Positions 379-35,193 of a stretch of 42,435 nucleotides of DNA are shown piece by piece. Numbering within the stretch: the first letter of the stretch is position 1; the number at the start of each line of letters is the position of its first letter. Source of the DNA: Collimonas silvisoli (lineage in GTDB: Bacteria > Pseudomonadota > Gammaproteobacteria > Burkholderiales > Burkholderiaceae_D); NCBI RefSeq assembly GCF_018305005.1, contig NZ_JAGQEG010000048.1:1-42435 (forward strand), read 5' to 3'. The translations under genes were made by a program, and so were the position numbers. Below the pieces are notes generated by a model that saw nothing but the letters and a program-made list of their open reading frames with translations, searched no databases and had not been told where the DNA came from.

Positions 379-1521
379 TTATTTCGTCACTGCCAGCTGG
401 GTGCGCTGACCGTTTCTGTAGGTGTACAAGGTGATGGTGCCATCCTGGATGTCGCCCTTGGCGTCAAACGAGATCATGCCGGTCACGCCCTTGTGGTGAA
501 TCTTGGCCAGCTCCGGCAGATATTTTTTCGGATCGGCCGACTTGGCTTTTTGCATAGCGTCCGCCATGACCATCAAGGCGTCGTAGGTGTACGGCGCATA
601 GATCACGACGTCCTTGCCGTATTTCTGCTTGTAGGCGGCCTTGTATTCATCCAGGCCCTTTCTGGCGGACTCTTCCACACCGCCGGCTTCGGCGCAAATC
701 ACTTGATCGTTGCTGATGCCGTCGCCGGCCAGTTTCGGCAGATCGGAAGTGCAGATGGCGTCGCCGCCCATGTACTTGGCGCTGATGCCCAATTGCTTCA
801 TCTGGCGCAGCATGGGGCCGCCGCCGGCATCCAGTCCGCCGAAGAATATGACGTCAGGTTTCTTGGCTTTGAACGAGGTCAGGATGGCGTTGAAGTCGGT
901 CGCCTTGTCGCTGGTGAATTGGGTGGCGACGATAGTCATGCCGGCGGCTTTGGCGGCCTTGGAGAATTCTTCCGCCAGACCCTGGCCGTAGGCAGTGCGG
1001 TCGTCGATCACGGCAGCGGTTTTGGCATGCAGCGTCTTGGCTGCATAACGGCCCAGGGCGCCGCCCAGCTGGCTGTCGTTGGCGACCACGCGGAAGGTGG
1101 TGTTGAAGCCTTGCTGGGTGTATTTTGCGCTGGTGGTGGAAGGCGAAATTTGCGGAATGCCGGCATCGTAATAAATCTTCGAAGCTGGAATCGAGGTGCC
1201 CGAATTGACATGGCCGATGACGCCGGCAACTTTGGCGTCGACCAGTTTCTGCGCTACCGCGGTAGCTTGTTTCGGATCGGATGCGTCGTCTTCCGTCATC
1301 AATACGAATTTGGTTTTCTTGCCATCCAGCGTGACGCCTTTTGCATTGAGTTCCTCGATCGCCATCTTGGCGCCGTTTTCATTGTCTTTGCCGATGTGAG
1401 CGATGGGGCCCGTGATCGGACCGACGTGCGCGATCTTGACCACTTGTTCCTGTGCGTATGCGCTTGCAGACAGGGACAACGCGATCGCCGCGGCCAATGG
1501 AATCATTTTAATTTTATGCAC
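379..1521 (-). CDS. Branched-chain amino-acid-type ABC transporter binding protein (copy 1)
   Basis: This is a 380-residue periplasmic solute-binding protein of the Leu/Ile/Val (LivJ/LivK) type, which captures an amino acid or amide and delivers it to a membrane ABC permease. Residues 1-23 are a Sec signal peptide ending AYA|QEQ. The mature part opens with the family's VVKIAHVGPITGP strand and continues with the EDDASDPKQA and SGTSIPASKIYYDAGIPQISP blocks of the first lobe. The GTG start at 1521 is chosen because AGGAG sits 8 nt before it. Copies 2 and 3 downstream on the map are close paralogues. No permease or ATPase gene is in the window, so partner and ligand are unknown. Confidence 0.93.
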   Translation of the reverse strand: MHKIKMIPLAAAIALSLSASAYAQEQVVKIAHVGPITGPIAHIGKDNENGAKMAIEELNAKGVTLDGKKTKFVLMTEDDASDPKQATAVAQKLVDAKVAGVIGHVNSGTSIPASKIYYDAGIPQISPSTTSAKYTQQGFNTTFRVVANDSQLGGALGRYAAKTLHAKTAAVIDDRTAYGQGLAEEFSKAAKAAGMTIVATQFTSDKATDFNAILTSFKAKKPDVIFFGGLDAGGGPMLRQMKQLGISAKYMGGDAICTSDLPKLAGDGISNDQVICAEAGGVEESARKGLDEYKAAYKQKYGKDVVIYAPYTYDALMVMADAMQKAKSADPKKYLPELAKIHHKGVTGMISFDAKGDIQDGTITLYTYRNGQRTQLAVTK

Positions 1522-1614
1522 CAGATTTTCTCCTAAGGATTTGCAACGGAATTGATAGCAAACGTTTTTTTAGACATCCGACTTCGATCAGTAGTTCGGT
1601 CTGTTCAGGGAGTT

Positions 1615-1651
1615 AAACGTTACAACATAACAATAGCTTCGCAAAGCGGTT
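1615..1651 (-). promoter_or_regulatory. Shared leader element, copy 1
   Basis: A 37-bp block upstream of binding-protein copy 1 begins ACGTTACAACATAA and ends with CTTCGCAAAGCGGTTTT (plus strand). Nearly the same block lies upstream of copies 2 (3029-3064) and 3 (4484-4520). Such conservation outside coding sequence points to a promoter or regulator site; which one is not clear. Confidence 0.55.
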
Positions 1652-1740
1652 TTATATGTTTTTTATCGATCGGGCGGGATCAAATGCGTAAGGTGCAAAA
1701 TAAGCCGCAAGGTAGGGCGCAAAGCAGCGCACGCGGAAAC

Positions 1741-1777
1741 AAAAAAGCGCCCCGGCGCTAAGGCCGGGGCGCTTTTT
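1741..1777. terminator. Bidirectional terminator of binding-protein copy 2
   Basis: GCGCCCCGG (1747-1755) pairs with CCGGGGCGC (1764-1772), bordered by six A on the left and five T on the right. It lies 31 bp past the stop of copy 2. Confidence 0.85.
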
Positions 1778-1807
1778 CACCGCTTTTCCACAACAGCCGC
1801 CGATGAT

Positions 1808-2959
1808 TTACTTGGTCACGCTCAACAAGGTGCGCTTGCCATCCTTGTAGGTGTACAAGGTCAAGGTACCGTCCTTGATATCGCCCTTGGGATCGAAGGC
1901 GATCATGCCGGTCACGCCCTTGTGCTGGATCTTCACCAGCTCCGGCAGATATTTTTTCGGATCGGCGGAGTTGGCTTTCTGCATGGCTTCCACCATGGTC
2001 ATCACGGAATCATACGAGTAGGGTGCGTACAGTTTGACTTCGGCGTTGTACTTCTTCTGGAACGCAGCCTTGAAATTGTCCAGGCCTTTCTTGCCCGATT
2101 CTTCGACACCGCCGGCTTCGGCGCAGACCACTTCGTCATTGATCAAGCCATCGCCTGCCAGCTTGCCCAGCTCGGCAGTACACATGCCGTCGCCGCCCAT
2201 GAACTTGGCCTTGATGCCAAGCGCCTTCATCTGACGCAGCATCGGACCGGCTACCGCATCCATGCCGCCGAAGAAAATCACATCCGGATTCTTGGCTTTG
2301 ATCGAGGTCAGGATGGCGTTGAAATCGGTTGCCTTGTCGTTGGTGAACTGGGTCGCGACAATATTCACGCCGGCGCCTTTGGCGCCCTTGGCGAATTCCT
2401 GCGCAACTCCTTGGCCGTAAGCGGTGCGATCATCGATCACGGCGATATTCTTGGCCTTCAGCGTGGCGGCTGCATAACGTCCCAGCGTACCGCCCAATTG
2501 GCCATCGTTGGCGACTACCCGGAACACGCTGTTAAAACCTTGCTGGGTGTATTTAGGGCTGGTGGCGGCCGGCGAAATTTGCGGGATGCCGGCGTCGTAG
2601 TAAATCTTCGAAGCCGGAATCGTGGTGCCCGAATTCAGGTGGCCGATGACGCCGTCGATTTTGGCGTCCACCAGCTTTTGCGCAGCAGCAGTGCCTTGCT
2701 TGGGATCGGAAGCATCATCTTCCGCCAGCAAGACGAATTTGATTTTCTTGCCGCCCAGGGTGACACCCTTGGCGTTCAATTCTTCGACTGCCATCTTGGC
2801 GCCGTTTTCCATGTCTTTGCCAAGATGGGCGGAAGGACCGGTAACCGGGCCGACGTGGCCGATCTTGACGATTTGTTCCTGAGCGTAAGCTGAGCCGACA
2901 GCGCTCAGGGCCAACGCGATTGCTCCAGCCAACGGCAACATTTTGTTCTTGATCTGCAC
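1808..2959 (-). CDS. Branched-chain amino-acid-type ABC transporter binding protein (copy 2)
   Basis: A 383-residue periplasmic binding protein of the Liv family, paralogous along its whole length to copies 1 and 3. The signal peptide (about 1-26, ending SAYA|QEQ) is followed by IVKIGHVGPVTGPSAHLGKD, the EDDASDPKQGTAAAQKLVDAK segment and the IPASKIYYDAGIPQISPAATSPKYTQQ segment typical of the first lobe. Translation starts at GTG (2959), with AGGAGG about 8 nt upstream. It has its own leader and terminator, so it is probably transcribed separately from its paralogues. Differences among copies lie mostly in the second lobe, suggesting related but not identical ligands (inference). Confidence 0.93.
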   Translation of the reverse strand: MQIKNKMLPLAGAIALALSAVGSAYAQEQIVKIGHVGPVTGPSAHLGKDMENGAKMAVEELNAKGVTLGGKKIKFVLLAEDDASDPKQGTAAAQKLVDAKIDGVIGHLNSGTTIPASKIYYDAGIPQISPAATSPKYTQQGFNSVFRVVANDGQLGGTLGRYAAATLKAKNIAVIDDRTAYGQGVAQEFAKGAKGAGVNIVATQFTNDKATDFNAILTSIKAKNPDVIFFGGMDAVAGPMLRQMKALGIKAKFMGGDGMCTAELGKLAGDGLINDEVVCAEAGGVEESGKKGLDNFKAAFQKKYNAEVKLYAPYSYDSVMTMVEAMQKANSADPKKYLPELVKIQHKGVTGMIAFDPKGDIKDGTLTLYTYKDGKRTLLSVTK

Positions 2960-3028
2960 GTATTTCCTCCTAAGGATTTATAAAGATGAGTGAAAGTCAT
3001 TTCCGCTCTTCAATGAGCGGAACATGTA

Positions 3029-3064
3029 AACGTTACAACAGAACAAAATCTTCGCAAAGGGTTT
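3029..3064 (-). promoter_or_regulatory. Shared leader element, copy 2
   Basis: A 36-bp version of the block seen at 1615-1651: ACGTTACAACAGAA at one end and CTTCGCAAAGGGTTTT at the other. It is 1 bp shorter and slightly diverged, and lies about 70 bp upstream of the GTG start. Confidence 0.5.
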
Positions 3065-3187
3065 TCCTGTTTTTTGGACAATACCCTTGTAGTCGATGCG
3101 GAGATTAGTTGTGCGGAGCGGGAGGAGTTTGTGCGTGACAGGACAATCGCATCGTCGCCACGGTATGCGTGTTCTTTAGCGGGAATA

Positions 3188-3218
3188 AAAAAAAGCGCCC
3201 CGGCGGCCGGGGCGCTTT
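3188..3218. terminator. Terminator of binding-protein copy 3
   Basis: AAAGCGCCCCGG (3192-3203) pairs perfectly with CCGGGGCGCTTT (3207-3218) around a 3-nt loop, with further A residues on the left that give a U-tract on the minus strand. The core is the same as in the terminator at 1741-1777. Confidence 0.85.
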
Positions 3219-3237
3219 CATATGCTGCGAGAGACGA

Positions 3238-4386
3238 TTATTTTGTCACTGTCAGCAGAGTGCGTTTGCCATCCTTGTAGGTGTACAAGGTCAGCGAACC
3301 GTCCTTGATGTCGCCCTTTGGATCAAAGGAGATTTCGCCGGTCACGCCTTTGTGATGGATCTTGGCCAGTTCCTTCAGATATTTCTTCGGATCGGCCGAA
3401 CCGGCTTTTTGCATTGCATCAACCATGGTCATCAGCGCGTCATACTCATACGGTGCGTAGATCACGACTTCCTGGTTGAATCTCTTCTGGTAAGCCGCCT
3501 TGAAGGCGTCCAGCGCCGCCTTGCCTGCATCCGGCACACCGCCCGCTTCGGCGCAGACTACCTGATCGTCTTTCAAGCCAGCGCCGGCCAGCTTGGCCAG
3601 CTCAGTGGTACACACGCCATCGCCGCCCATGAATTTGGCCTTGATGCCGAGCTGGTCCATCTGACGCAGCATCGGGCCGCCGACCGCATCCATGCCGCCA
3701 AAGAACACCAAGTCAGGATTCTTCGACTTGATCGAGGTCAGAATCGCGTTGAAATCGGTGGCCTTGTCGTTGGTGAATTGGGTAGCGACGATAGTGCCGC
3801 CTGCTTTCTTGGCGCTTTTGGTGAATTCTTCCGCAACCCCTTGACCGTAGGCGGTACGGTCATCGATCACCGCGATATTCTTTGCCTTCAGCGTATTGAT
3901 GGCGTAGCGGCCCAGGGTGCCGCCCAGCTGGCCATCGTTGGCCACCACGCGGAACGCGGTGTCAAAGCCTTGCTGAGTGTACTTGGGATTGGTGGCGGAA
4001 GGAGAGATTTGCGGGATGCCTGCATCGTGATAAATCTTCGAAGCAGGGATGGTGGTGCCGGAATTCATGTGGCCGATAACACCGTTGACCTTGGCGTCCA
4101 CCAGCTTCTGCGCAGCGGCAGTGCCTTGTTTCGGATCGGAGGCGTCGTCTTCGGAAGCCAGTACGAATTTCACCAGTTTGCCGCCGATTTTGGTGCCTTT
4201 GGCATTCAATTCCTCGATCGCCATCGTGGCGCCGTTTTCATTGTCCTTGCCGATGTGGGCGTTAGGGCCTGTGAGCGGGCTGACCTGGCCGATGGTGACT
4301 ACTTCCTGGGCCGAAGCTGAACCGGCGAAGGAAAAAGCCATGGCGATTGCGCCAACCAACGGCATCATTTTGATCTTGTTTTGCAT
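3238..4386 (-). CDS. Branched-chain amino-acid-type ABC transporter binding protein (copy 3)
   Basis: A 382-residue Liv-family periplasmic binding protein, the third paralogue. The signal peptide ends near residue 26 (SASA|QEV), followed by VVTIGQVSPLTGPNAHIGKD and the same EDDASDPKQG and SGTTIPASKIYHDAG blocks as its sisters. The ATG start at 4386 has AGGAGG 6 nt upstream. It is divergent from the Lrp-type regulator at 4566, the shared leader element lies between them, and control by that regulator is a reasonable inference. Ligand unknown. Confidence 0.93.
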   Translation of the reverse strand: MQNKIKMMPLVGAIAMAFSFAGSASAQEVVTIGQVSPLTGPNAHIGKDNENGATMAIEELNAKGTKIGGKLVKFVLASEDDASDPKQGTAAAQKLVDAKVNGVIGHMNSGTTIPASKIYHDAGIPQISPSATNPKYTQQGFDTAFRVVANDGQLGGTLGRYAINTLKAKNIAVIDDRTAYGQGVAEEFTKSAKKAGGTIVATQFTNDKATDFNAILTSIKSKNPDLVFFGGMDAVGGPMLRQMDQLGIKAKFMGGDGVCTTELAKLAGAGLKDDQVVCAEAGGVPDAGKAALDAFKAAYQKRFNQEVVIYAPYEYDALMTMVDAMQKAGSADPKKYLKELAKIHHKGVTGEISFDPKGDIKDGSLTLYTYKDGKRTLLTVTK

Positions 4387-18270: not shown

Positions 18271-20229
18271 TTAGCTGAGCTTGAAAACAGCAGCAGTCTG
18301 CGCCAGCTGCGCCGCCTGGTCTTGCAGGCTTTCGGCAGCTGCTGCAGCTTGCTCCACCAGCGCCGCATTTTGCTGGGTGATGTCGTCGATATGTCCCATG
18401 GCACGGTTGATCTCTTCGATGCCGCTGCTTTGTTCGCCGGTTGCCGCCGTGATTTCATGCATGATGTCGGCCACCCGCTTGACCGCGGCGACTATGCCTT
18501 GCATGGTCTGGCCGGCCGCATCGACCAGCTTGCCGCCGGCGTCCACTTGTTCCACCGAGGCGCTGATCAAGCCCTTGATTTCCCTGGCCGCCGCCGCCGA
18601 GCGCTGCGCCAGGTTGCGCACTTCCGCCGCCACCACGGCAAAACCGCGGCCCTGTTCGCCAGCCCGGGCTGCTTCCACCGCCGCATTCAACGCCAGGATA
18701 TTGGTCTGGAAGGCGATGCTGTCAATCACGCCGATGATGTCGTGGATTTTGCGCGAGCTATCCTTGATGGTGCTCATGGTAAGCACCACCTTGCCGACCA
18801 CCTGGCCGCCCTCAAGCGCCTGTCCCGATGCCGTGATCACTAGCTGGTTGGCGTGCTGGGCGCTGTCGGCGTTTTGTTTTACCGCTGCCGTCAGCTGCTC
18901 CAGCGAGCTGCTGGTCTGTTCCAGCGAACTGGCTTGCGATTCGGTCCGGGCTGACAGATTGGCGTTGCCTTCGGCAATCTCTTGCGAGGCGCGCGCCATC
19001 TCGCCGGTGCCTTGCCGCACATTGCCGATGACACCGGCCAGGCCCTGGCTGATGCCATTGATGGCTTGTTCCAGCTGGCCGATTTCGTCGCCGCGCCGGC
19101 TGCTCAGCGTGCTAGTCAGATCACCCGCCGCCAGTTGCTGCGCAACCTGTTTCACTCTTTCCAGCGGCTGGCTGATGTTGGCGCGGATCAGCCAGTACAG
19201 CGCCGCTACCATGATCAACACCGCCATCAAGCCGAACAGGGCGTTGCGATTGCGCAGCGTGGTGATCTCCTGCGTCAGTTCGGCGGCGTCTTCATTGCCG
19301 ACGATCAGCCAGTTCCAGTTCTTGTACAGTGCGAAAGCGGCGATTTTTTCAGAACCGCTGGCAGCGCTTTCCTGCAAGGCATAGCGCATGCTGCCTTCTT
19401 TGCGCTCCAGGATTTCCTTGATGAATTCACGGCCGTCAGCATCCTTCAGCGCCAGCACATTCTTACCTTCTTCGGCCGGCGCTATCAGCAGCTTGCCCAG
19501 ATCTTTACCCTGGCTGGCGTTGAGCACATAGAAATAACCGGCGTCGCCCAATTTGACCGAGCGGATGCGCGCTTTCAGCGTTTCGATGTCGCTGCCGATA
19601 TCCACCCCGACGAACAGCGCGCCGACGATCTTGCCGGCTTCATCCTTGACCGGGTTGTAGGCCGTCATGTACTCCTTGCCGAACAGGGTTGCGCGGCCGA
19701 TATACGACGAGCCGCCTTGCAAGCGTCCATAGCCGGGGTGCGCATGGTCGAGCACGGTGCCGATAGCGCGTTCGCCGTTTTCTTTCTTGAGCGAGGTCGA
19801 GATGCGGATGAAGTCATCGCCGTTCTTGATGAAAATCGTCGCTACCGCCCGGCTGGACGACGTAAAACTGTCGGCGACGGAAAAATTCATATTGATGATG
19901 TCATTGCCGTTCTTCAGCAGCGGCGTCGGTTTGCCGGCGACATCGATCGTCTTGCTGCTGTCGATAGAAAATTTCCCAGGGAAATAACTCGCCAGCAAAA
20001 GTCCGAAACGATCGGCTTCGCTTTTATGGCTGGCGTCGAATGTATCCAGCATCTGGATCATGGTATCGGTCCTGCCGGCGATATCGCGCGCTGCGCGCTG
20101 TTCCAGCAACTGCGAGGTGGAACTGGCGCTGGCCCAGCCATAAGCCAGGAAAATCAAGGTGGCCAGGAAGAAGGTGAGCAAGCTGAGCTTGATGCCCACA
20201 TTCAGGTTTTTGAAGAATTTCTTGTTCAT
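18271..20229 (-). CDS. Methyl-accepting chemotaxis protein with Cache sensor
   Basis: A 652-residue chemoreceptor. Membrane segments at about 13-33 and 329-348 enclose a long periplasmic region (about 35-325) of Cache_3-Cache_2 type, including GRTDTMIQMLDTF, ATLFGKEYMTAYNPV and LGDAGYFYVLNASQGKDLGKLLIAP. A HAMP linker (about 350-400) leads to the signalling domain with the universal tip [31 protein letters not shown] and methylation-helix repeats. It is transcribed away from the other two receptors. The C-terminus (AAVFKLS) lacks a CheR-docking pentapeptide. Cache_3-type receptors often sense organic acids, but no ligand can be assigned. Confidence 0.94.
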   Translation of the reverse strand: MNKKFFKNLNVGIKLSLLTFFLATLIFLAYGWASASSTSQLLEQRAARDIAGRTDTMIQMLDTFDASHKSEADRFGLLLASYFPGKFSIDSSKTIDVAGKPTPLLKNGNDIINMNFSVADSFTSSSRAVATIFIKNGDDFIRISTSLKKENGERAIGTVLDHAHPGYGRLQGGSSYIGRATLFGKEYMTAYNPVKDEAGKIVGALFVGVDIGSDIETLKARIRSVKLGDAGYFYVLNASQGKDLGKLLIAPAEEGKNVLALKDADGREFIKEILERKEGSMRYALQESAASGSEKIAAFALYKNWNWLIVGNEDAAELTQEITTLRNRNALFGLMAVLIMVAALYWLIRANISQPLERVKQVAQQLAAGDLTSTLSSRRGDEIGQLEQAINGISQGLAGVIGNVRQGTGEMARASQEIAEGNANLSARTESQASSLEQTSSSLEQLTAAVKQNADSAQHANQLVITASGQALEGGQVVGKVVLTMSTIKDSSRKIHDIIGVIDSIAFQTNILALNAAVEAARAGEQGRGFAVVAAEVRNLAQRSAAAAREIKGLISASVEQVDAGGKLVDAAGQTMQGIVAAVKRVADIMHEITAATGEQSSGIEEINRAMGHIDDITQQNAALVEQAAAAAESLQDQAAQLAQTAAVFKLS

Positions 20230-20620
20230 TGATCATCCTTTTCTTGTTAGGTGGAGCCGCGCTTTTTGCCGCCGCTCCGATTAACACCATCAGTGGCCGA
20301 GCGGGCCAGGTTACGGCCCGGCGACCGGCGAACGGCGTCCTGCCGAAATCCTGGCAATCAAAAGCAATAACGACAACTATCGCGGAAGTTGAAGGGCGGC
20401 CGGTGAGCGGGTGATCAGCCGCCGTGGCGCAGTTGCGATTTTGCGGGCCTTAAGAAACGCCGCGGGCTGCCGTTAACACGATCAGGGAAGTGAACATGAA
20501 GCGCGAATATGACGTGGAGATCCAAATTTCCCGCGCAATTCAGATTCCCGGCTTGCCGACCATGTACCCAATGTTTTTGCGTGCTTTTGCGTGTATTTGA
20601 AACCCATCCGAGAAAAAATC
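20230..20620. other. Intergenic region between divergent chemoreceptor genes
   Basis: About 390 bp without a supported gene. It holds a sigma-28-like promoter (20450-20476) for the rightward gene; no comparable promoter for the leftward gene is clear. Confidence 0.45.
20450..20476 (+). promoter_or_regulatory. Candidate sigma-28 (FliA) promoter
   Basis: TTAA (20450-20453), exactly 15 bp, then GCCGTTAA (20469-20476), compared with the sigma-28 consensus TAAA-N15-GCCGATAA: one mismatch in each half. It lies about 145 bp before the chemoreceptor at 20621, a class of gene usually driven by FliA, which is itself encoded at 35287. Confidence 0.5.
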
Positions 20621-22243
20621 ATGACCTGGTTCTATAACTTGAAAATTGCGACCAAACTGCTGCTGTCGTTCGCTTTGATACTAATACTGACAGTAGTGCT
20701 GGGCGTGACCTCGATCACGCAACTAGGGCAAGTCAACGCCACTACCGTCGAAATCAATACCAACTGGATGCCGAGCGTGCGGGTATTGCTGACCTTGAAG
20801 AGCAACCTGGCGCTGCTGCGCAATATCGAAATGCAGCACGTCATGTCGAACGATGTAGCGGACATGGACAAGAGCGCCCAGTTCATCAACGACATCCGGG
20901 CCGATCTGCAAAAGAACCTGAGCGAATACGCGCCTATGGTGATGGAACAGGAACGTATTGTGTACGATCAGTTAAAAGAAAAAATCCCGCAGTATCTGGA
21001 GATGGACAAGAAAATCGTCCAAATCTCGCGTGTGTTCAAAAAGGATGATGCGATAGCAGAGATACGGGGCGATTCCCTGGCCGCCATCATAGGGCTGGAT
21101 AAACAGGTTGATCAACTGGTAAGAATCAATACCGATGGCAGCGCTACCGCCGCCAAAAACGGCGCAGCCATCTATGACAAAGCCAGGATCTGGATGGTCG
21201 GCTTGATGATTGCCATGGCGGTGCTCGGCTTTGCGCTGGCGTTGTGGATCGCACGGGCAGTTGCTCAGCCGCTGGGGTTTGCAGTGGAAGTGGCGCGCCG
21301 GGTCGCCGACGGCGATCTGACGGCAGATATCGAAGTCAGGTCCAAGGATGAGACCGGGCAGCTGATGCAGGCGTTGAAAGACATGAACGACAGCTTGCAG
21401 AAAATTGTCGGCGAAGTGCGCAGCGGCACCGACACCATTGCAACCGCATCCAACCAGATTGCGGCCGGCAATCTGAACCTGTCGCAACGCACCGAAGAGC
21501 AAGCCAGTTCGCTGGAAGAAACCGCCGCATCGATGGAGCAGCTGACCTCGACCGTCAAGCAGAATGCCGACAACGCCAGCCAGGCCAACCAGCTGGCGGT
21601 ATCCGCCTCGGAAGTGGCGATCCATGGCGGCACGGTGGTGACCCAGGTGGTCAGCACCATGGGCGCCATCAATACTTCTTCGAAAAAGATCGTCGATATC
21701 ATCGGCGTCATCGACGGCATCGCCTTCCAGACCAATATCCTGGCCTTGAACGCCGCCGTCGAAGCGGCTCGGGCCGGCGAGCAGGGCCGCGGCTTCGCAG
21801 TGGTGGCCGCCGAAGTGCGCAATCTGGCGCAACGGTCCGCCGCTGCCGCCAAGGAAATCAAATCCCTGATCGACGACTCGGTGGAAAAAGTCGGTCTCGG
21901 ATCGCGCCTGGTCGACCAGGCCGGCAGCACCATGGAGGAAATTGTCGCCAGCGTCCGTCGCGTGACCGACATCATGGGCGAGATCACCGCCGCCAGCCAG
22001 GAACAAACCTCGGGTATCGAACAGATCAATCAGGCCATCAGCCAGATGGACCAGGTGACCCAGCAAAACGCCGCCTTGGTGGAAGAAGCCGCAGCTGCTG
22101 CCGCCAGTTTGCAAGATCAGGCTGGCGCGCTGGAACAAGTGGTCGGCGCCTTCAAACTGGAGCGGATGCACATCGCGGCGCAGGCCAAGCGAATGATAGA
22201 TATCACACCGCAAACGCAGATGTTGCGCAGCGCAGCCGCATAA
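20621..22243 (+). CDS. Methyl-accepting chemotaxis protein with four-helix-bundle sensor
   Basis: A 540-residue chemoreceptor. A membrane segment at about 10-30 ([16 protein letters not shown]) is followed by a 4HB_MCP-type helical periplasmic domain of about 150 residues, a second membrane segment near 190-210 ([19 protein letters not shown]), HAMP, and the signalling domain with tip [43 protein letters not shown]-type sequence. ATG 20621 ([17 protein letters not shown]) is the usual start for this family; a GTG 30 bp upstream is less likely. No C-terminal docking pentapeptide is present. Confidence 0.94.
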
Positions 22244-22428
22244 GAGTCAACCAGGCGATGAAGAAGCGGCATGGCCGGAGCAAGCGGTGTTTTAGGCTGC
22301 TGTTCGCGGCATCGGCCTGCCGCCGCCGTACTTATATTGCAATACGGGCCGTTGCCGCTGAAACCTGAGCACGGCGCTCCCAACCATCGCTTTCCTGGAT
22401 TGCGATCTGGATCTGAAGTGAGGCGAAA

Positions 22429-24228
22429 ATGAATGCATTGAGTTTGAAGAAAAAATTGCTGGCGGTGCTGGCGTTCATGTGGCTCGGCATGTTGATGCTG
22501 GGCGGCTGGTCGGCCTGGAATACGCGGGATACGATGTTGCTGGAACGCCAGAACGGTCTGAAAAACCTGGTGGAAACGGCGGAAGGTATCGTCAAAAGCT
22601 ACGCTGCCGACGTCACCGCCGGCAAGCTTGAAAAGGACGCTGCGCAGGCGGAAGCATTGAAACGCATCCTGGCGATGCGTTACGACAAATCCAACTATGT
22701 GTTCGTGGCTGACTCGCGTCCCGTGGTGCTGGCCCATCCAGTTTTGCCAAACCTGGTCGGGACCAATGTCATGGACCGCAAAGACAACAAGGGCAAATTC
22801 TTTTTCAGAGAGATAGTGAGTCTCAGCAAGGAAAACGGCCAGGGTTTTATCGAGTCCATGGCGCAGGGCGCAACCGGACAGTATCGGCCGAAGCTCAGCT
22901 ACGCCAGATATTTTCAGCCTTGGGACTGGCATCTGCTATCCGGTGTCATGCTGGACGATGTCGATACCGCGTTCTATGCAAATCTACGGCTTGAGCTGAT
23001 CATCTTGTTCGCCATCGGCGCCTGCGTCTCGGCCTTGATGCTGCTGGTGATCCGCAGCGTTACCAGCAGCCTGGGCGGCGAACCGCAATATGCGACCGAG
23101 ATTGCGACCAGGATTGCCGATGGCGATCTGGATCTGCAGGTCGAAGTCGACAGCAAGGACCAGCCTAGCCTGCTGAACGCCATGCGCCAGATGCAGGAGC
23201 GGCTGGCTGCGACAGTGCGCGAGATCAGAGAAGGCAGCAGCGCGATCACCGGCGCTACCCGTGAAATCGCCGCCGGCAATGCCGACCTGTCGGCGCGCAC
23301 CGAACAGCAAGCCGCTTCGCTGGAAGAAACCGCCGCCAGCATGGAGCAGCTAACCGCAACCGTGAAGCAAAACGCCGACAATGCGCGCCAGGCCGGCCAG
23401 CTGGCGCAGACCGCATCCGACATCGCCGCCAGAGGCGGCGTGGTGGTAGGGCAGGTGGTCGACACCATGCAAGGCATCACCACCAGTTCCAGAAAGATCG
23501 CCGACATCATCGGCGTGATCGACGGCATCGCGTTCCAGACCAATATCCTGGCCCTGAATGCGGCGGTGGAGGCGGCGCGCGCCGGCGAGCAGGGACGCGG
23601 TTTCGCCGTGGTTGCCGGCGAAGTACGCACGCTGGCGCAACGCAGCGCGCAAGCCGCCAAGGAAATCAAGGAACTGATCGACGATTCGGTAAGCCGGGTC
23701 GATTCAGGCTCGGAACTGGTTGACCGCGCCGGCGAAACCATGGGCGAAGTGGTGCAGGCAGTTAAACGCGTAACCGACATCATGGGCGAAATCTCGGAAG
23801 CGTCGGCCGAGCAAAGCAGCGGCATCGAACAGATCAACCAGGCGGTGATCCAGATGGATCACGTCACCCAGCAGAATGCCGCGCTGGTAGAGCAGGCCGC
23901 GGCGGCAGCCGGTTCGCTGGAAGATCAGGCGCAACGGCTGCATCAGGCGGTATCGGTATTCCGTTTGCAGGAAAGTCATCTCCAGCAAGCACAGGCAGCG
24001 CCAGACAATAAGCAGCGTGCAGCATTGGCGCAGGCCGCTCGAGCTGCCGCATCGGTAAAAAAGGCGTCACCAGAAGCAGCAAAAGTAAGTACGCCGGCTG
24101 CAAGCAGGGTTGCGGCAACACATGCGAAGGCGCATTCCAAGCCGCATCTTAAGCTGGCGCCAGTTAAGTTGAGGCCTGCTTCAGCACAGGCCAAGACTGC
24201 CGCCGCCGACGACTGGGAAACATTTTGA
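22429..24228 (+). CDS. Methyl-accepting chemotaxis protein with single Cache domain and WETF tail
   Basis: A 599-residue chemoreceptor. A membrane segment at about 9-28 precedes an sCache_2-type domain (about 35-185: [48 protein letters not shown]), then a second membrane segment (about 187-207), HAMP and the signalling domain with the same tip as its neighbours. After the signalling helices comes an Ala/Lys-rich linker of about 80 residues ending in DDWETF. WETF is the CheR/CheB docking sequence of high-abundance receptors. The gene directly precedes cheR, so this is probably the main receptor working with that methylation system. Confidence 0.95.
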
Positions 24229-28669: not shown

Positions 28670-29821
28670 ATGGCGGAAGAAAGCGATCTCGAAAAGACAG
28701 AACCCGGTTCTTCACGCCGCCTGGAAAAGGCGCGCGAAGAAGGTCAGGTTGCGCGCTCCCGCGAACTAAGCACCTTCGTCATGCTGACCACCGGCATCGG
28801 CGGCCTATGGCTCACAGCCGTGCCGATGGCCGAGCACATCGGCCACACGCTAAGACAAGCCATGCAATTCAAGCGCGCCGCCGGCTTCGACACCTCCTAC
28901 ATGCTGACCCAAGCCGCCGCCGCCCAAGAAGCGCTGCAAGCCCTGCTACCGTTGCTAGGCATGCTGGCGCTGGCAGCGCTGGTCGCGCCGGTGATGCTAG
29001 GCGGCTGGCTATTCTCAACCCAATCGCTAGCGCCAAAATTCTCAAAACTCAACCCCGCCGCCGGCATCGCCCGCATCTTCTCCAGCCAATCGCTGGCTGA
29101 ACTATTCAAGGCATGCACCAAGTCGGCACTGGTAGGCGGCATCGCCTATTGGGTCATGTCGCGCAACCTCGACAATCTGCTCGGCCTGCTGAGCGAGCCG
29201 GTCCACGGCGCCTTGGCGCATACGGTACGGCTGGTGGCCAATTGCTGCAGCCTGATCATCGGCTCGCTGCTGCTGGTGGCCGCCATCGACGTGCCATATC
29301 AATTGTGGAGTTACTACCGCAAGCTGCGCATGACGCGCGAAGAATTGAAGCAGGAACACAAGGAAAGCGAAGGCGATCCGCACATCAAAGGCCTGATCCG
29401 GCGCCAGCAGCAACAGATGGCGCGCCGCCGCATGATGGCCGACGTCGCCAGCGCCGACGTGGTGGTCACCAATCCGACCCACTTTGCAGTCGCCCTCAAA
29501 TACAGCGATAAGGAAATGCGAGCCCCCCGGGTAGTTGCCAAAGGCACCGACCTGGTCGCGCTGCGGATCCGCGCCATCGGCGCCGAGCACAAGATTCCGA
29601 TGCTGGAAGCGCCGCCCCTGACCCGTGCGCTATATCGCCATACCAACCTCGGCGAAGAAATCCCGGCCGCCCTGTATACCGCGGTGGCCGAAGTGCTGGC
29701 CTGGGTCTATCAATTGCAGCGCTGGCGCAGCGAGGGCGGCATTGCGCCGCGCACGCCGGCTGATCTTCCGGTTCCCGCTTCACTAGACACCTCACTCGAT
29801 ACCATAGGGAGCCCGGCATGA
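28670..29821 (+). CDS. flhB: Flagellar type III export protein FlhB
   Basis: A 383-residue inner-membrane protein of the flagellar export gate that switches substrate from rod/hook to filament proteins. The N-terminus has the family DLEKTEPGSSRRLEKAREEGQVARSREL segment, followed by four membrane segments (about 33-52, 92-115, 150-165, 188-208). The cytoplasmic domain carries the autocleavage site N268-P-T-H (VVVTNPTHFAVALKY). It overlaps flhA by ATGA. Confidence 0.97.
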   Translation: MAEESDLEKTEPGSSRRLEKAREEGQVARSRELSTFVMLTTGIGGLWLTAVPMAEHIGHTLRQAMQFKRAAGFDTSYMLTQAAAAQEALQALLPLLGMLALAALVAPVMLGGWLFSTQSLAPKFSKLNPAAGIARIFSSQSLAELFKACTKSALVGGIAYWVMSRNLDNLLGLLSEPVHGALAHTVRLVANCCSLIIGSLLLVAAIDVPYQLWSYYRKLRMTREELKQEHKESEGDPHIKGLIRRQQQQMARRRMMADVASADVVVTNPTHFAVALKYSDKEMRAPRVVAKGTDLVALRIRAIGAEHKIPMLEAPPLTRALYRHTNLGEEIPAALYTAVAEVLAWVYQLQRWRSEGGIAPRTPADLPVPASLDTSLDTIGSPA

Positions 29822-31923
29822 AGCCAGCAGGCCCAGCTTTTTCATTCGCATCCTTGCCACGCTTAGGGGCCGCCATATTGGCCGGCAACAGCGTCAAGGG
29901 CATGGCCGGCCCGATGCTGATCATCATGATTCTCGGCATGATGATCCTGCCCTTGCCGCCGTTCCTGCTCGACTTGCTGTTCACCTTCAACATCGCACTC
30001 TCGGTGATGGTGCTGCTGGTCAGCATGTACACCATGAAGGCGCTGGATTTTGCCGCTTTCCCGGCAGTCTTGCTGTTTTCGACTCTGCTGCGCTTGTCGC
30101 TCAACGTCGCTTCTACCCGCGTGGTGCTGCTGGAAGGCCACACCGGCCCGGACGCCGCCGGCAAGGTGATCGAAGCCTTCGGCCATTTCCTGGTGGGCGG
30201 CAATTTCGCGGTGGGTATCGTGGTCTTTGTGATTCTGGTGGTAATCAACTTCATGGTGATTACCAAGGGCGCCGGGCGGATCGCCGAAGTCGGCGCCCGC
30301 TTCACGCTGGATGCGATGCCCGGCAAGCAGATGGCGATCGACGCCGATTTGAACGCCGGCCTGATCGGCGAAGACGTAGCCCGCAAACGCCGCGCCGAAG
30401 TAGCGCAGGAGGCGGATTTCTACGGTTCCATGGACGGCGCCAGCAAGTTCGTGCGCGGCGATGCGATAGCCGGTTTGCTGATCATGGTGATCAATGTGGT
30501 CGGCGGCCTGATCGTCGGCGTCGCGCAGCACGGCCTGGATATTTCGGTGGCCGCCAAGAATTACACCTTGCTGACTATCGGCGACGGCCTGGTAGCGCAA
30601 ATCCCGGCGCTAGTGATTTCCACCGCCGCCGGCGTCATCGTCTCACGCGTGACTACCGATGAAGATGTCGGCCAGCAGTTGATGGGGCAGTTGTTTTCCA
30701 ATCCACAGGTGCTGTTCCTGACCGCCGGCATCATCGGCCTGATGGGGCTGGTGCCAGGCATGCCGCATGTGGCGTTCTTGCTTATTTCAGGCGGCCTGGT
30801 TTACCTCGGCCGTCGTCTGCTGCAGCGTAGCGCCGCGGCTGAATATGCCGCCAAGGCGCCGCCGCCTTCCGCGGCAGCGGCGGAACCGGCCGACGCCAGC
30901 TGGGATGATGTGGCGCTGGTCGATCCGCTTGGACTGGAAGTCGGCTACCGCTTGATTTCCCTGGTGGACCGCAGCCAGAACGGCGAGCTGCTGGGCCGCA
31001 TCAAAAGCATCCGCAAGAAATTTGCGCAAGACATCGGTTTCCTGGTGCCGGTAGTGCATATCCGCGACAACCTCGAACTCAAGCCGAATTCCTACGTGAT
31101 TACCCTGAAAGGCGTGGAGATCGCCAACGGCGAAGCCTGGCCGGGGCAATGGATGGCGATCAATCCGGGCCAGGTCAGCGCGACCTTGCCCGGCACGCCG
31201 ACGGTCGATCCGGCCTTTGGCTTGCCGGCGGTCTGGATCGATAGCCACATGCGGGAACAGGCGCAGATCTACGGCTATACCGTGGTCGACGCCAGCACCG
31301 TGATCGCCACCCATCTCAACCACCTGATCCACGCCCATTCGGCGGAACTGCTGGGACGGCAGGAAGTGCAGCAACTGCTGGACCGGGTCGCCAAGGATGC
31401 GCCGAAACTGATCGAGGATCTGGTGCCCAAGCTGCTGTCGCTGACAACCTTGCAGAAGGTATTGCAAAACCTGCTGGATGAAAGTGTTTCGATCCGCGAC
31501 ATGCGCACCATTCTGGATGTCCTGCTGGAGCACGGCGCCGGCGTCAGCGATGCTACCGAACTGACATCGCTGGTGCGGCTGGCGCTGGGCCGGGCGGTCA
31601 CCCAGCAGCTATTCCCCGGCAACGGCGAGCTGCAGGTGATCGGTCTCGACGGTTCCCTGGACCGGGTTCTGCTGCAAGCGTTGAGCAACGGCAGCGGGCT
31701 GGAGCCAGGCCTGGCCGATAGCTTGCTGACCCAGACCCAGCTTGCGATTACGCGTCAGGAGCAGTTCGGTTTGTCGCCGGTGCTGGTGGTACAGCATCCT
31801 CTGCGCGTCTTGCTGGCGCGCTTCCTGCGCCGCAGCCTGCCGCAGCTCAAAGTGCTGTCGCACGCCGAGATCCCTGACACCCGCACCATCAAAGTAACCG
31901 CCACCATCGGAGGTAAGGTTTGA
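29818..31923 (+). CDS. flhA: Flagellar type III export protein FlhA
   Basis: A 701-residue core component of the export gate that couples proton motive force to secretion. The N-terminal half has about eight membrane segments and the FHIPEP-type block (ASTRVVLLEGH, GGNFAVGIVVFVILVVINFMVITKGAGRIAEVGARFTLDAMPGKQMAIDADLNAGLI). The C-terminal half is the cytoplasmic substrate-docking ring domain. Length is typical. The gene overlaps flhF if flhF starts at TTG 31920. Confidence 0.97.
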   Translation: MKPAGPAFSFASLPRLGAAILAGNSVKGMAGPMLIIMILGMMILPLPPFLLDLLFTFNIALSVMVLLVSMYTMKALDFAAFPAVLLFSTLLRLSLNVASTRVVLLEGHTGPDAAGKVIEAFGHFLVGGNFAVGIVVFVILVVINFMVITKGAGRIAEVGARFTLDAMPGKQMAIDADLNAGLIGEDVARKRRAEVAQEADFYGSMDGASKFVRGDAIAGLLIMVINVVGGLIVGVAQHGLDISVAAKNYTLLTIGDGLVAQIPALVISTAAGVIVSRVTTDEDVGQQLMGQLFSNPQVLFLTAGIIGLMGLVPGMPHVAFLLISGGLVYLGRRLLQRSAAAEYAAKAPPPSAAAAEPADASWDDVALVDPLGLEVGYRLISLVDRSQNGELLGRIKSIRKKFAQDIGFLVPVVHIRDNLELKPNSYVITLKGVEIANGEAWPGQWMAINPGQVSATLPGTPTVDPAFGLPAVWIDSHMREQAQIYGYTVVDASTVIATHLNHLIHAHSAELLGRQEVQQLLDRVAKDAPKLIEDLVPKLLSLTTLQKVLQNLLDESVSIRDMRTILDVLLEHGAGVSDATELTSLVRLALGRAVTQQLFPGNGELQVIGLDGSLDRVLLQALSNGSGLEPGLADSLLTQTQLAITRQEQFGLSPVLVVQHPLRVLLARFLRRSLPQLKVLSHAEIPDTRTIKVTATIGGKV

Positions 31924-34361
31924 GCATGAATAACAACAGCGCCAACAACGTCACCATCGTCGCCCCGTCCAGCCGTGAAGCATTGCGCCTGGTGCGCGAA
32001 CAACTGGGGCCGGATGCGATTATCGTTTCCAACCGGGCTACCGCAAGCGGCGTCGAGATTGTCGCCATGCTGGAAACGGCGCTTGCGCAACCTGCAGCGG
32101 CGCCGCCAGCCGCAAGCGCAGCTGCGGCAACTGATCCGGCAGTTGCTGTAGCAACCAACGTGGCAACTAACAAAGACAACAACGATAGCGTTATCAGCGA
32201 GATTCATTCGATGCGCGGCATGATCGAAGAACAGCTGGCCGGCCTGGTGTGGAACGACAAGCAACGGCGCGATCCGGTACGCGGCCATCTGCTGCGCACC
32301 TTGCTAGGCGCGGGCTTCAGCGCCAGCCTGGCGAAAGCGATGCTGGACCATCTGCCGACCGGCCAGAATTTCGCCTCCGGCATGGCATGGGTCAAGGCCG
32401 AACTGGCGCGCAATCTGCCCTTGATGGAAAACGAAGACACGCTGATGGATGGCGGCGGCGTCTATGCCTTGATGGGGCCGACCGGCGTCGGCAAGACCAC
32501 CACCACCGCAAAACTGGCGGCGCGCTGCGTCATGCGCTTCGGCGCCGACAAGCTGGCGCTGCTGACCACCGACAGCTACCGCATCGGCGCGTTCGAACAG
32601 TTGCGCATCTACGGCAAGATCCTGGGCGTGTCGGTGCATGCAGTCAAGGACGCCGCCGATCTGCGATTGGTGCTGGACGACCTGCGCGACAAGCACATGG
32701 TCTTGATCGACACCGTCGGCAAGAGCCAGCGCGACCGCAGCGTCTCGGACCAGGTCGCCATGCTGTGCGGCGCCGGCCGACCGGTCAAGCGGCTGCTGCT
32801 GCTGAACGCCGCCAGCCACGGCGACACGTTGAACGAAGTAGTGCACGCCTATAAAGACAGCGCCGGCGGCAACCAGCTGGCCGGCTGCATCTTTACCAAA
32901 ACCGACGAAGCCACCCATCCCGGCGCATTGCTGGATACCGTGATCCGCCACCGGCTGCCGGTGCACTACGTCTCCTGCGGCCAGAAAGTGCCGGAAAACC
33001 TGATGATCGCCGAGCGCTCGCAACTGGTCGACAGCGTGTTCCAGAGCGCCAGCCGCAGCGCCTTGTTCGTGCCGGGCGAGGCCGATCTGGGCGAGTTGCC
33101 GGCGGCATTGAACAACGATAACGAACTGGCCGCCGCGGCCGCCACCACCGAACGCTTGCGCAGCCAATGCCAGCAACTGATCCGGGTATTGGCGCACGAC
33201 GCCGAGGAATTGGCGGCCAACGCCAGCGCGCTGGCTAACGGCCAGATCGGCTTCGACGGCAGCAGCGCATTGTGGCGCGACCTGGCCGACGACAGCGTCA
33301 GCAGCAAGGCGACGGTGCACAAGCTGTTGACATTGGCGAACGCAGAAATAGAGACTGCATGCGCTAGCCATGTGCTGGCCGTCAGCGGCAAGACGGAGTT
33401 GCTGGCCAGCCGCAGCGGCGACGCCTACACTTTGCAATCCAGCGTACTGCTGTCGGACCGCAACGGCATGCCGCTGGCGGCGCCGCATCAGCTGTTGTCT
33501 ACCGCGCTGTCCACCACACCTGCCGCCGGTGCAACCGATGCAATCAGCGTTGCGCCAAGGCCAGCGCTGCGTCAGCTGGCATGGATGCAGCAACAACATT
33601 TCGCCAAGCCCCTCGTGCATTTGCTGGACAGAATGCCGGCCTCAGACTTGATCCAGTCCTGGCAAGCAGACGGCCTGTCATGGCTGGCGCGGGCGCGCGG
33701 CACCACTGGCGTGATGCACGGCGAGCAGCGCACCACGCTGGCGAAACTGGCGGCGCAACTGACGTTCGACGCGCCCCAGGCTATCGTCTACAAAGGCAAG
33801 CCGGCGCAGCAAACGCTGGCAGAAACGGCGATCGCTTTGCGTGGCGACAGCCAGTCCGGCAGCTGCTTATCCGGTTTCGCCAGCCTGCGTTGCGTGGTCA
33901 TGCGTATTGTCGATCAGCACAGCGGCAAGTTGCTCGCCAGCTGGTATTTGCTGAGCAATCTCGCGCCCTCGGTGACGGCACAGCAACTGGCCGCATGGTC
34001 TTGCTGGAAGCAAGCTGCCGATCCCTATTTCAAATTGCTCAAGCAAGCCATCCAGCAACTCGACGCTTGCACCGAACCGGGCGATAGCCATATGCAGAAA
34101 CGCTTGCTGGTTGCGGCCCAGGCCAGCACTACGGTCTGGCGTCTGGCGCACACGCAGGATAGCTGGGCCGCTGCAGCGCGGGCGTTGCTGGCGCAACTGG
34201 CAGGGCACCGTATCCGCTCCAGCTCTGTCACCGTCACCGCTGCGGCGGCGCTGTTTGAAGGTTTCGGCAAGCTGATCGCATTGCTGGATGCACTGGCGCT
34301 GGATGCAGAGAACGCTCCTGGCCTAACGCCGGCGCACCACACGGCAGCGTTGCCAGGGTGA
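31920..34361 (+). CDS. flhF: FlhF GTPase fused to a transposase-like C-terminal domain
   Basis: An 813-residue protein, about twice the usual FlhF length (roughly 370-500). Residues 10-45 are the FlhF N-terminal motif (REALRLVREQLGPDAIIVSNR); 55-90 an Ala-rich linker; 90-380 the SRP-type NG GTPase domain with P-loop G186-PTGVGKTTT, DSYRIGAFEQL, D264-TVGKSQRD and T326-KTDE. FlhF sets the site and number of flagella. From about residue 405 to 800 the sequence resembles an IS4-family transposase: KPLVHLLDR (563-571), LLASWYLLSN (671-680), YFKLLK (703-708) and KRLLVAAQASTTVWRLA (728-742). TTG 31920 has GGAGG 6 nt upstream; ATG 31926 is an alternative. Confidence 0.9.
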   Translation: MSMNNNSANNVTIVAPSSREALRLVREQLGPDAIIVSNRATASGVEIVAMLETALAQPAAAPPAASAAAATDPAVAVATNVATNKDNNDSVISEIHSMRGMIEEQLAGLVWNDKQRRDPVRGHLLRTLLGAGFSASLAKAMLDHLPTGQNFASGMAWVKAELARNLPLMENEDTLMDGGGVYALMGPTGVGKTTTTAKLAARCVMRFGADKLALLTTDSYRIGAFEQLRIYGKILGVSVHAVKDAADLRLVLDDLRDKHMVLIDTVGKSQRDRSVSDQVAMLCGAGRPVKRLLLLNAASHGDTLNEVVHAYKDSAGGNQLAGCIFTKTDEATHPGALLDTVIRHRLPVHYVSCGQKVPENLMIAERSQLVDSVFQSASRSALFVPGEADLGELPAALNNDNELAAAAATTERLRSQCQQLIRVLAHDAEELAANASALANGQIGFDGSSALWRDLADDSVSSKATVHKLLTLANAEIETACASHVLAVSGKTELLASRSGDAYTLQSSVLLSDRNGMPLAAPHQLLSTALSTTPAAGATDAISVAPRPALRQLAWMQQQHFAKPLVHLLDRMPASDLIQSWQADGLSWLARARGTTGVMHGEQRTTLAKLAAQLTFDAPQAIVYKGKPAQQTLAETAIALRGDSQSGSCLSGFASLRCVVMRIVDQHSGKLLASWYLLSNLAPSVTAQQLAAWSCWKQAADPYFKLLKQAIQQLDACTEPGDSHMQKRLLVAAQASTTVWRLAHTQDSWAAAARALLAQLAGHRIRSSSVTVTAAAALFEGFGKLIALLDALALDAENAPGLTPAHHTAALPG
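33132..34319 (+). other. Transposase-derived (IS4/DDE-like) region within flhF
   Basis: This is residues 405-800 of FlhF. Order and spacing of motifs follow an IS4-type transposase: a helical N-terminal part, a VSGKTEL strand (488-494) where the family has a catalytic Asp (here G490), KPLVHLLD570R carrying the second Asp, a WLARARG strand, LLASWYLLSN, and WSCWKQAADPYFKLLK (693-708) in place of the Y-x2-R-x3-E-x6-K motif, with C, K, D and K. One of three catalytic acids is lost and one is changed to Asp, so the domain is probably not an active transposase. No terminal inverted repeats or separate start were seen. Similarity was judged by eye. Confidence 0.72.
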
Positions 34362-34371
34362 GGAGACAGCT

Positions 34372-35193
34372 TTGAACAAGGTGGTCAGCGATCAGGCAGA
34401 CGGTTTGCGCTGCCTGATGGCGCAGCATTCGGGCATGCATGCGGCGCATGTCATTGCATTGGTTGGCAGCAGCCCCAGGATCGGCGTCACCAGCGTCGCC
34501 TTGAACCTGGCCGCAGCGCTGGTGCAGCAAGGAAAAGAGGTGTTGTTGCTGGATGAACAGAGCGGGGCGCATCCGGCAACCGCGAAGTGGGCTGGCGCTG
34601 GCGTTGCGGCCGGCAGTTGGTCCGAGGTTGCGGCTGGCGGCCTGCCGTTGTCGCTGGCGGCGTCGCGCATGGCCTGCGGTGCGTTGCTGCTGCCGGTGCG
34701 GTCAACCTGCAGGCGCGATCCGGCAACTGCGGAGGCCGATGTGCGCAGTGTGTTTCGAGGCCAGGTGATCTTGATCGACGCCAGCCTCGACCAGCGCGGC
34801 GGCTTGTCGCCGTTGGCGGCGCAGGCGGACGATGTAGTGGTGGTGTTGCGGCCGCAGGCAGCGTCGATTACCGCCGCTTACACCTGCATCAAGCAATTGC
34901 ACTATACCCACGCCATGCAGCGGCTGCGCATCATGGTCAATCTGGCGGCCGGCATGCCGGAAGCGCAACGTGTGCTGAGCAATCTGGCAGCCACCGGCAG
35001 CCGTTATCTGGGGCTGGCGCTGGAACCCGCCGGCTGTGTCGCCGAGGACCCGCATCTGGTGCGCGCCCAAGGTCTCAAATTGAGTGTGGTAGAGGCATTT
35101 CAAACCAGCGCGGCGGCGGTCGATTTCCGTCGCATCGCCGGGCAGTTGCTGCAATGGCCGCGTCGCGTTGCGGCAACAGCGCAGTCGCATTAA
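34372..35193 (+). CDS. flhG: FlhG/FleN MinD-like flagellar number regulator, degenerate P-loop
   Basis: A 273-residue MinD/ParA-type protein. FlhG normally binds ATP, dimerises at the membrane and stimulates FlhF GTPase, limiting flagellar number. Residues 7-13 (DQADGLR) match the DQAxxLR FlhF-activating helix. The deviant Walker A (normally GKGGVGKT) is here VGSSPRIGVTS (31-41), lacking both lysines, while VALNLAAAL, LLLDEQ (58-63) and the VILIDAS strand keep the fold. Start is TTG 34372 with AGGAG 6 nt upstream, right at the flhF stop. It may be an ATP-independent FlhF activator (inference). Confidence 0.85.
   Translation: MNKVVSDQADGLRCLMAQHSGMHAAHVIALVGSSPRIGVTSVALNLAAALVQQGKEVLLLDEQSGAHPATAKWAGAGVAAGSWSEVAAGGLPLSLAASRMACGALLLPVRSTCRRDPATAEADVRSVFRGQVILIDASLDQRGGLSPLAAQADDVVVVLRPQAASITAAYTCIKQLHYTHAMQRLRIMVNLAAGMPEAQRVLSNLAATGSRYLGLALEPAGCVAEDPHLVRAQGLKLSVVEAFQTSAAAVDFRRIAGQLLQWPRRVAATAQSH

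Follow-up and report, generated by a model that had tools for sequence, protein, structure and literature searches.

FlhF of Collimonas silvisoli carries a C-terminal extension that is very probably a captured, inactive IS4-type transposase

The flhF locus

We analysed a stretch of 42,435 nucleotides from Collimonas silvisoli (RefSeq assembly GCF_018305005.1, contig NZ_JAGQEG010000048.1, forward strand; hereafter the window), in which the flagellar gene flhF encodes a protein about twice as long as its FlhF part. The frame runs over 813 codons without a stop (31920 to 34361, + strand). Based on homology, predicted fold, active-site counts and selection, we consider it very probable that the C-terminal half of this FlhF is an IS4/Tn5-type transposase, captured in one lineage of the flagellar cluster and kept under purifying selection, with the first catalytic aspartate (Asp 1) missing. 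The genes and FlhF domains at the locus are as follows.

29818..31923, + strand: flhA, directly upstream of flhF (named by operon context and sequence)
31920..34361, + strand: flhF, 813-residue FlhF-transposase fusion (open frame, FlhF profile matches)
31953..32720, + strand: canonical FlhF part, residues 12-267 (TIGR03499)
32460..33041, + strand: SRP54-type GTPase domain, residues 181-374 (PF00448, E 4.7e-34)
34372..35193, + strand: flhG, downstream of flhF, starting with TTG (named by operon context and sequence)

The TTG at 31920, taken as the start of flhF, overlaps the flhA stop (TTGA); an alternative ATG start lies two codons further on, at 31926. An earlier note on this DNA, made by reading the sequence, had flhF overlapping flhG. 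The overlapping partner is flhA instead, and a gap of ten bases separates flhF from flhG. The G+C content is even along the gene (0.634 in the FlhF core, 0.639 in the extension). Residues 1 to ~385 had been read as FlhF, and the profiles agree: besides PF00448, TIGR03499 matches at 261.7 bits, above its curated family threshold of 174.15, and the P-loop GPTGVGKTT is present. No other place in the genome matches TIGR03499 at E ≤ 1e-20; a search with the whole protein found two weaker places (E 4e-14 and 3e-8). A putative role in flagellar placement is assigned to it from gene context. The NCBIfam model for long FlhFs, NF011312 (PRK14723; 768 aa, named 'flagellar biosynthesis regulator FlhF'), spans residues 13-792 at 882.4 bits, below its own cut-off of 951.

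The fusion point

33051..33116, + strand: junction, residual FlhF tail (SRSALFVPGEADL...), by comparison with the ends of unfused FlhFs
33081..34358, + strand: transposase-derived extension, residues 388-813, start approximate (homology, predicted fold)

The number of residues beyond the NG domain separates two classes of FlhF, with 25-101 in 61 unfused proteins, 402-477 in 29 fused ones and nothing between. Most of the unfused FlhFs displayed at the junction stop 25-40 residues past the NG domain. Fused proteins from several lineages retain the first part of this tail (e.g. ALFVPGEADL) and then continue. The flhF stop was probably lost, with read-through into an adjacent transposase open reading frame, which would explain why the FlhF tail is kept and then followed by the extension. 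Among the repeats in 32900-34700 we found no convincing terminal inverted repeats or target duplication bounding the extension; an old, decayed element would show no terminal repeats.

Two genes joined by a frameshift in sequencing or assembly, for which a site near 33130 had been considered, can be set aside for practical purposes. The same fusion is found in 29 distinct sequences, including single-contig assemblies and the megaplasmid of C. metallidurans CH34. It is uninterrupted in 12 of the 16 matching genomes among 294 searched (four of those 12 are single-contig assemblies) and in all 12 named loci, five of which repeat genomes of the 294-genome search. The in-frame fusion described in the earlier note is thus real, given this conservation across genomes.

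Relatives of the extension

Searched alone against the 294 genomes of the GTDB family, the extension matched in 16, comprising the 12 fused FlhFs and four stand-alone transposase-like genes. The strongest stand-alone gene has 33% identity over query residues 12-392 (E 4.9e-38), and the remaining three match weakly (E 1.6e-4 to 6.4e-4). Seventeen matches were obtained against 72,556 plasmid records. Nine are annotated 'transposase' (Methylotuvimicrobium, Acinetobacter, Citrobacter, Aeromonas and Serratia; E 1e-21 to 4e-17), four are Arsenophonus places annotated 'hypothetical protein' (E 3e-7) and four are Cupriavidus megaplasmids, of which both of the two inspected carry a fused FlhF. Pfam DDE_Tnp_1 recognizes four of five stand-alone relatives above its cut-off and gives the fifth 21.6 of the required 23 bits. 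The C-terminal half of PRK14723 matches three of four stand-alone transposases (E 2.1e-41, 8.5e-32 and 1.3e-23) and has no match to the fourth, ISSysp3, which is itself above the cut-off of the NCBIfam model transpos_IS4_3. When six other extensions were compared with NCBIfam, that of Herminiimonas matched transpos_IS4_3 at 5e-8, that of Rhodoferax the same model at 8e-4 and that of genome G633 transpos_IS4_1 at 0.02.

An intact stand-alone relative is present at 1366-2649 of locus L095, on the Serratia marcescens plasmid p11663 (IncC), directly upstream of sul1.

Active site and predicted fold

33240..33359, + strand: N-terminal end of the Tn5-like match (model 54-93; boundaries approximate)
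33360..34154, + strand: RNase H-like core, residues ~481-745 (predicted model)
33387..33389, + strand: G490, at the position of catalytic Asp 1 (alignment to stand-alone transposase)
33627..33629, + strand: D570, at the position of catalytic Asp 2 (same alignment)
33999..34043, + strand: degraded Y-R-E-K signature, S694, K697, D701 and K708 (same alignment)
34155..34322, + strand: helices at the C-terminal end, residues ~746-801, aligning with the C-terminal part of Tn5 (predicted model)

Alignment to a stand-alone transposase places G490 where the first catalytic Asp is expected, as the earlier note had proposed, and S694/K697/D701/K708 over Y-R-E-K, which that note had called degraded; available excerpts of PMC2266710 describe Y-R-E-K as a marker motif of the IS4 family. 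The catalytic triad of the window protein, G490/D570/D701, is therefore not DDE. We extended the alignment to 29 extensions and seven stand-alone relatives. Asp 1 is kept by five of the six relatives that cover the position (Asn in the remaining one; the seventh relative is truncated) and by 0 of 29 extensions, which carry Gly (24), Ala (2), Ser, His or Gln (1 each). At the second Asp position 13 of the extensions have Asp and four Glu; at the Glu position 13 have Glu and 11 Asp. D-D-E occurs in none of the 29. Judged from these sequences, loss of Asp 1 probably predates the split of the sampled lineages, with later decay having been independent.

The predicted structure of the extension has an RNase H-like, Tn5-type fold over most of the domain, so the fold that the earlier note had anticipated is present in the model and aligns to Tn5. 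The structural alignments start near Tn5 residue 5.

Selection on the extension

Selection was estimated by Nei-Gojobori counting over 36 pairs from nine Collimonas-genus sequences, as the ratio of non-synonymous to synonymous substitution rates (dN/dS). The linker that precedes the N domain has a median of 0.52 (28/36 pairs usable). In the extension the median is 0.22 (range 0.15-0.33, maximum 0.334; 36/36 pairs), indicating purifying selection; a dN/dS check of this kind had been proposed for it. By part, and in residue numbers that run one higher than the protein numbering used elsewhere, the values are 0.16 for ~400-470 (34/36 pairs usable), 0.28 for 471-700 and 0.13 for 701-797. The helical C-terminal part is the most constrained stretch, and no value in the extension exceeds 0.49.

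Distribution of the fusion

The 29 fused FlhFs come from the genus Collimonas (nine), Herminiimonas (one), genus g15 (two), Polaromonas (five), a Rhodoferax metagenome-assembled genome, a Burkholderiales metagenome-assembled genome, family f49 (one), genus g133 (two; Cupriavidus by tree placement), Cupriavidus metallidurans CH34, C. campinensis and family f4 (five). In the genus Collimonas the fusion is present in 9 of 15 genomes. We considered the other six as losses of the domain and rejected this, as they give no FlhF match at E ≤ 1e-30; some Collimonas species are described as being without flagellar genes, and the parts of the literature available to us disagree on C. pratensis (PMC4690342, PMC11288634). 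One of two Herminiimonas genomes (g13) has the fusion, the other an unfused FlhF.

At the level of the order, 251 of 399 genomes were over the TIGR03499 cut-off, and among those whose frame lengths were read, including a set of 80 listed separately, at least ten are fused. Three of these (G389, G428, G635) were recognized by frame length after escaping the A1 profile, so the survey may have overlooked divergent fusions. Families f9, f38, f21 and f19 also contain long FlhF frames, as does G541 (f31); these were tried as fusions and rejected, since the extra length is N-terminal and only 26-101 residues follow the NG domain. Very long N-terminal parts are seen in the unfused FlhFs L074 and L083-L086 (f38, f9), with frames of 755-1242 residues.

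A broad-profile search of 369 genomes of the class gave six with matches at E ≤ 1e-5, namely the window's own genome, G949 and four others with stand-alone or broken transposase-like frames (two inspected, G900 and G926). G949 (locus L132) is a gammaproteobacterium outside the order; its divergent FlhF-transposase fusion continues for 369 residues past the NG domain. An FlhC is encoded in the same genome.

Weighing capture of a transposase

A number of results weigh against a transposase captured once and retained. In the window protein, a Pfam scan at E up to 10 gave no transposase match in the extension, and NCBIfam at the same limit matched it with PRK14723 only and with no IS4 model. No NCBIfam transposase model matched three of the six other extensions, and three stand-alone relatives reach only 74.6-92 of the 160 bits set for transpos_IS4_3. 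The model of the extension is of middling quality (predicted local distance difference test, pLDDT, 67.9; predicted template modelling score, pTM, 0.63), AlphaFold may have learnt Tn5, and the full-length model (pLDDT 52.2, pTM 0.32) is uninformative on domain packing. Constraint is weaker on the extension than on the GTPase (median dN/dS 0.22 versus 0.03), and dS is near saturation (median 0.89), so that the dN/dS values are rough. In a tree of the NG domains of 90 FlhFs (L118 has no NG match and is outside this set), all 29 fused proteins fall in one clade of 32 (99/99) together with three unfused FlhFs of family f31. Fusion state has to change twice on the best NG trees; a single change is enough in 18% of bootstrap trees for the 90 FlhFs and in 3% with G949 added. 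A tree of FlhA, covering 78 of the 90 loci (12 lack enough sequence, nine of them fused), needs two changes in its best form and allows one in 0% of bootstrap trees.

Three further extensions likewise gave no transposase match in Pfam, and the best hit of the extension in a sequence search of the PDB has E 0.35. A profile search of residues 400-813, named in the earlier note as a check, is accordingly negative for transposase models (Pfam, NCBIfam). We set this negative aside because the relatives of the extension and its predicted fold both point to a transposase. Together with the active-site counts, selection and phylogeny, they uphold the proposal of an IS4-type transposase that was captured, kept in frame and deprived of its catalytic site.

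The extensions form one side of a branch that divides them from 13 transposase rows (99/98); caution is due with this tree because of long branches (ISSysp3), unusual composition in several rows and one row that was cut wrongly. A single clade of the 29 fused FlhFs is not rejected by the approximately unbiased test (p 0.381). With G949 included, and five loci left out for long branches or doubtful place (L074, L079, L081, L113, L115), the NG tree has a clade of 33 rows at 93/92 with G949 on a long branch. The FlhA tree unites 20 fused loci and two unfused f31 loci in one clade (98/98). The simplest account would be one capture followed by one loss, in family f31 outside Cupriavidus. The transposase may also have been captured twice, given the unfused FlhFs inside the fused clade and the trees with two changes. 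Unfused FlhFs of families f1, f49 and f4 are placed elsewhere in the NG tree, which suggests that this flagellar cluster has moved between families.

Neighbouring genes

In the window FlhG (34372-35193) the DQAxGLR helix is kept and the Walker A motif is degenerate (VGSSPRIGVTS), making it a possible pseudo-ATPase as judged by motif. Similar decay is seen in many unfused Burkholderiales, with GVGKT kept in some (e.g. members of f14). A degenerate FlhG as the partner of the fusion was considered and rejected, the motif being degenerate in unfused families too (e.g. f1, f34, f25). Three adjacent chemoreceptor-like genes (18271-24228) lie just upstream of a run that we take to be cheR/cheD/cheB/cheY/cheZ-flhB-flhA-flhF-flhG; these names, like that of the chemoreceptors, are presumed from the sequence. 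At 379-4386 (- strand) there are three tandem paralogous genes of 380-383 residues each, presumably for substrate-binding proteins of branched-chain amino-acid ABC transporters.

Possible roles of the extension

The Tn5 inhibitor is a non-transposing, inactive product of Tn5 that acts by contact with the transposase, and Tn5 transposase dimerizes through its C-terminal part. By analogy, the extension of FlhF may be a non-catalytic structural module, whose C-terminal helices would provide a second, GTP-independent surface for self-association or partner binding beside the GTP-dependent homodimer of the NG domains. Such a surface could alter how firmly FlhF is seated at the site of assembly of the first flagellar ring. 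With the active site lost and the C-terminal helices better kept than the rest, we judge a second self-association or partner surface the likeliest role; self-association through the extension, taken by itself, is a tentative choice that we hold at somewhat below even chance. In the portions of recent accounts available, the NG domains of FlhF form a GTP-dependent homodimer, FlhG stimulates it, and a landmark protein is linked by FlhF to the flagellum under construction (PMC12826062, PMC12713375).

The extension could instead be an adaptor for a protein partner (a landmark protein, the C-ring or a regulator) that alters FlhF localization or flagellar number in this lineage of the flagellar cluster. 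The description of FlhF as a tether between polar landmark and developing flagellum, in the same partial source (PMC12826062), is in keeping with this, as is a conserved extra domain under purifying selection. The presence of FlhC, however, does not separate fused (21/21) from unfused (30/37) genomes, and we rate the adaptor as rather unlikely. For want of the same contrast FlhDC was rejected as a distinguishing trait.

The earlier note had suggested, with a 'perhaps', DNA or protein binding that would connect flagellar placement with the nucleoid or with gene control. It is unlikely, to a slightly greater degree than the adaptor, that the extension retains ancestral DNA binding and anchors FlhF, and with it the positioning of flagella, on the nucleoid or on certain DNA sites. 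Tn5-type transposases do bind DNA, and the predicted fold extends to an N-terminal part aligned near Tn5 residue 5. Yet among the large parts of the extension, constraint is lowest in the region of the catalytic core (dN/dS 0.28), and net charge lies between -7 and +3 in the 29 extensions versus -3 to +13 in seven related transposases, a mild shift and weak evidence. The fuller version, in which the captured transposase is a DNA-binding tether through which FlhF sets the sites of flagellar assembly relative to the nucleoid or specific chromosomal sites, we find doubtful; we know of no bacterial link of such a kind made through a captured transposase.

Improbable in our view, and the least favoured of these roles, is a tolerated passenger that need only fold without harming FlhF. 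The dN/dS of the extension exceeds the GTPase value more than sevenfold, five columns are invariant in 22 rows, so that divergent lineages have few residues in common, and one lineage inside the fused clade is without the extension. A single stop codon would, however, remove the extension easily, and 402-477 residues past the NG domain have been kept without internal stop in 29 sequences of several families, with 369 in the divergent one.

Comparison with known systems

The window protein has a full FlhF part (TIGR03499, B-N-G) and lies between flhA and flhG; the ordinary form ends 25-101 residues past the NG domain, whereas this one carries a long extension. A 2025 review gives the FlhF architecture as B-N-G, and the word 'transposase' is absent from the portion of its text available (PMC12826062). 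PRK14723 shows that long FlhFs have already been collected as a family. That model covers nearly the whole window protein, and its name is silent on transposases although its C-terminal half matches them.

With IS4-family transposases of the Tn5/IS50 type the extension shares homology and predicted fold, but the triad and Y-R-E-K are lost and no convincing terminal inverted repeats are found. The Tn5 transposase inhibitor (PDB 1b7e) is a separate product of a live transposon; the window domain is part of a host GTPase. In eukaryotic CSB-PGBD3, as here, a host gene is joined to a transposase domain and the fusion kept; according to the part of the report available, it is a primate product of alternative splicing onto a piggyBac element, unlike the single frame of a bacterial gene and an IS4-type domain (PMC3459987). 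TnpA-REP (PMC8266576) and the other bacterial domestications (review PMC8987985) are likewise reuses of transposases, and the parts of these texts available gave no fusion to a flagellar-placement GTPase. 'IS4', 'DDE' and 'fusion' have 0 occurrences in the accessible text of that review, as do 'flhF', 'fusion' and 'domesticat' in that of 'IS4 family goes genomic' (PMC2266710). None of the open-licence PMC papers searched combined FlhF, 'transposase domain' and 'fusion', and partial listings of that literature held no description of a transposase domain in FlhF, which is not proof of absence.

To our knowledge, fusions of host genes to transposases are found mainly in eukaryotes. The present one is unusual in being bacterial, widely shared and part of a core GTPase of cell organization; it is conserved in frame across species (29 fused sequences and one divergent) and is under purifying selection. 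Because Pfam has no match in the extension, the fusion goes unnoticed under the database name FlhF (PRK14723). It is shared across bacterial families and affects a core flagellar-placement factor that is well studied in its ordinary form. It also has a bearing on the way in which one flagellar switch gives different flagellation patterns, and Cupriavidus metallidurans CH34 and Collimonas are environmental hosts suited to studying what the domain does.
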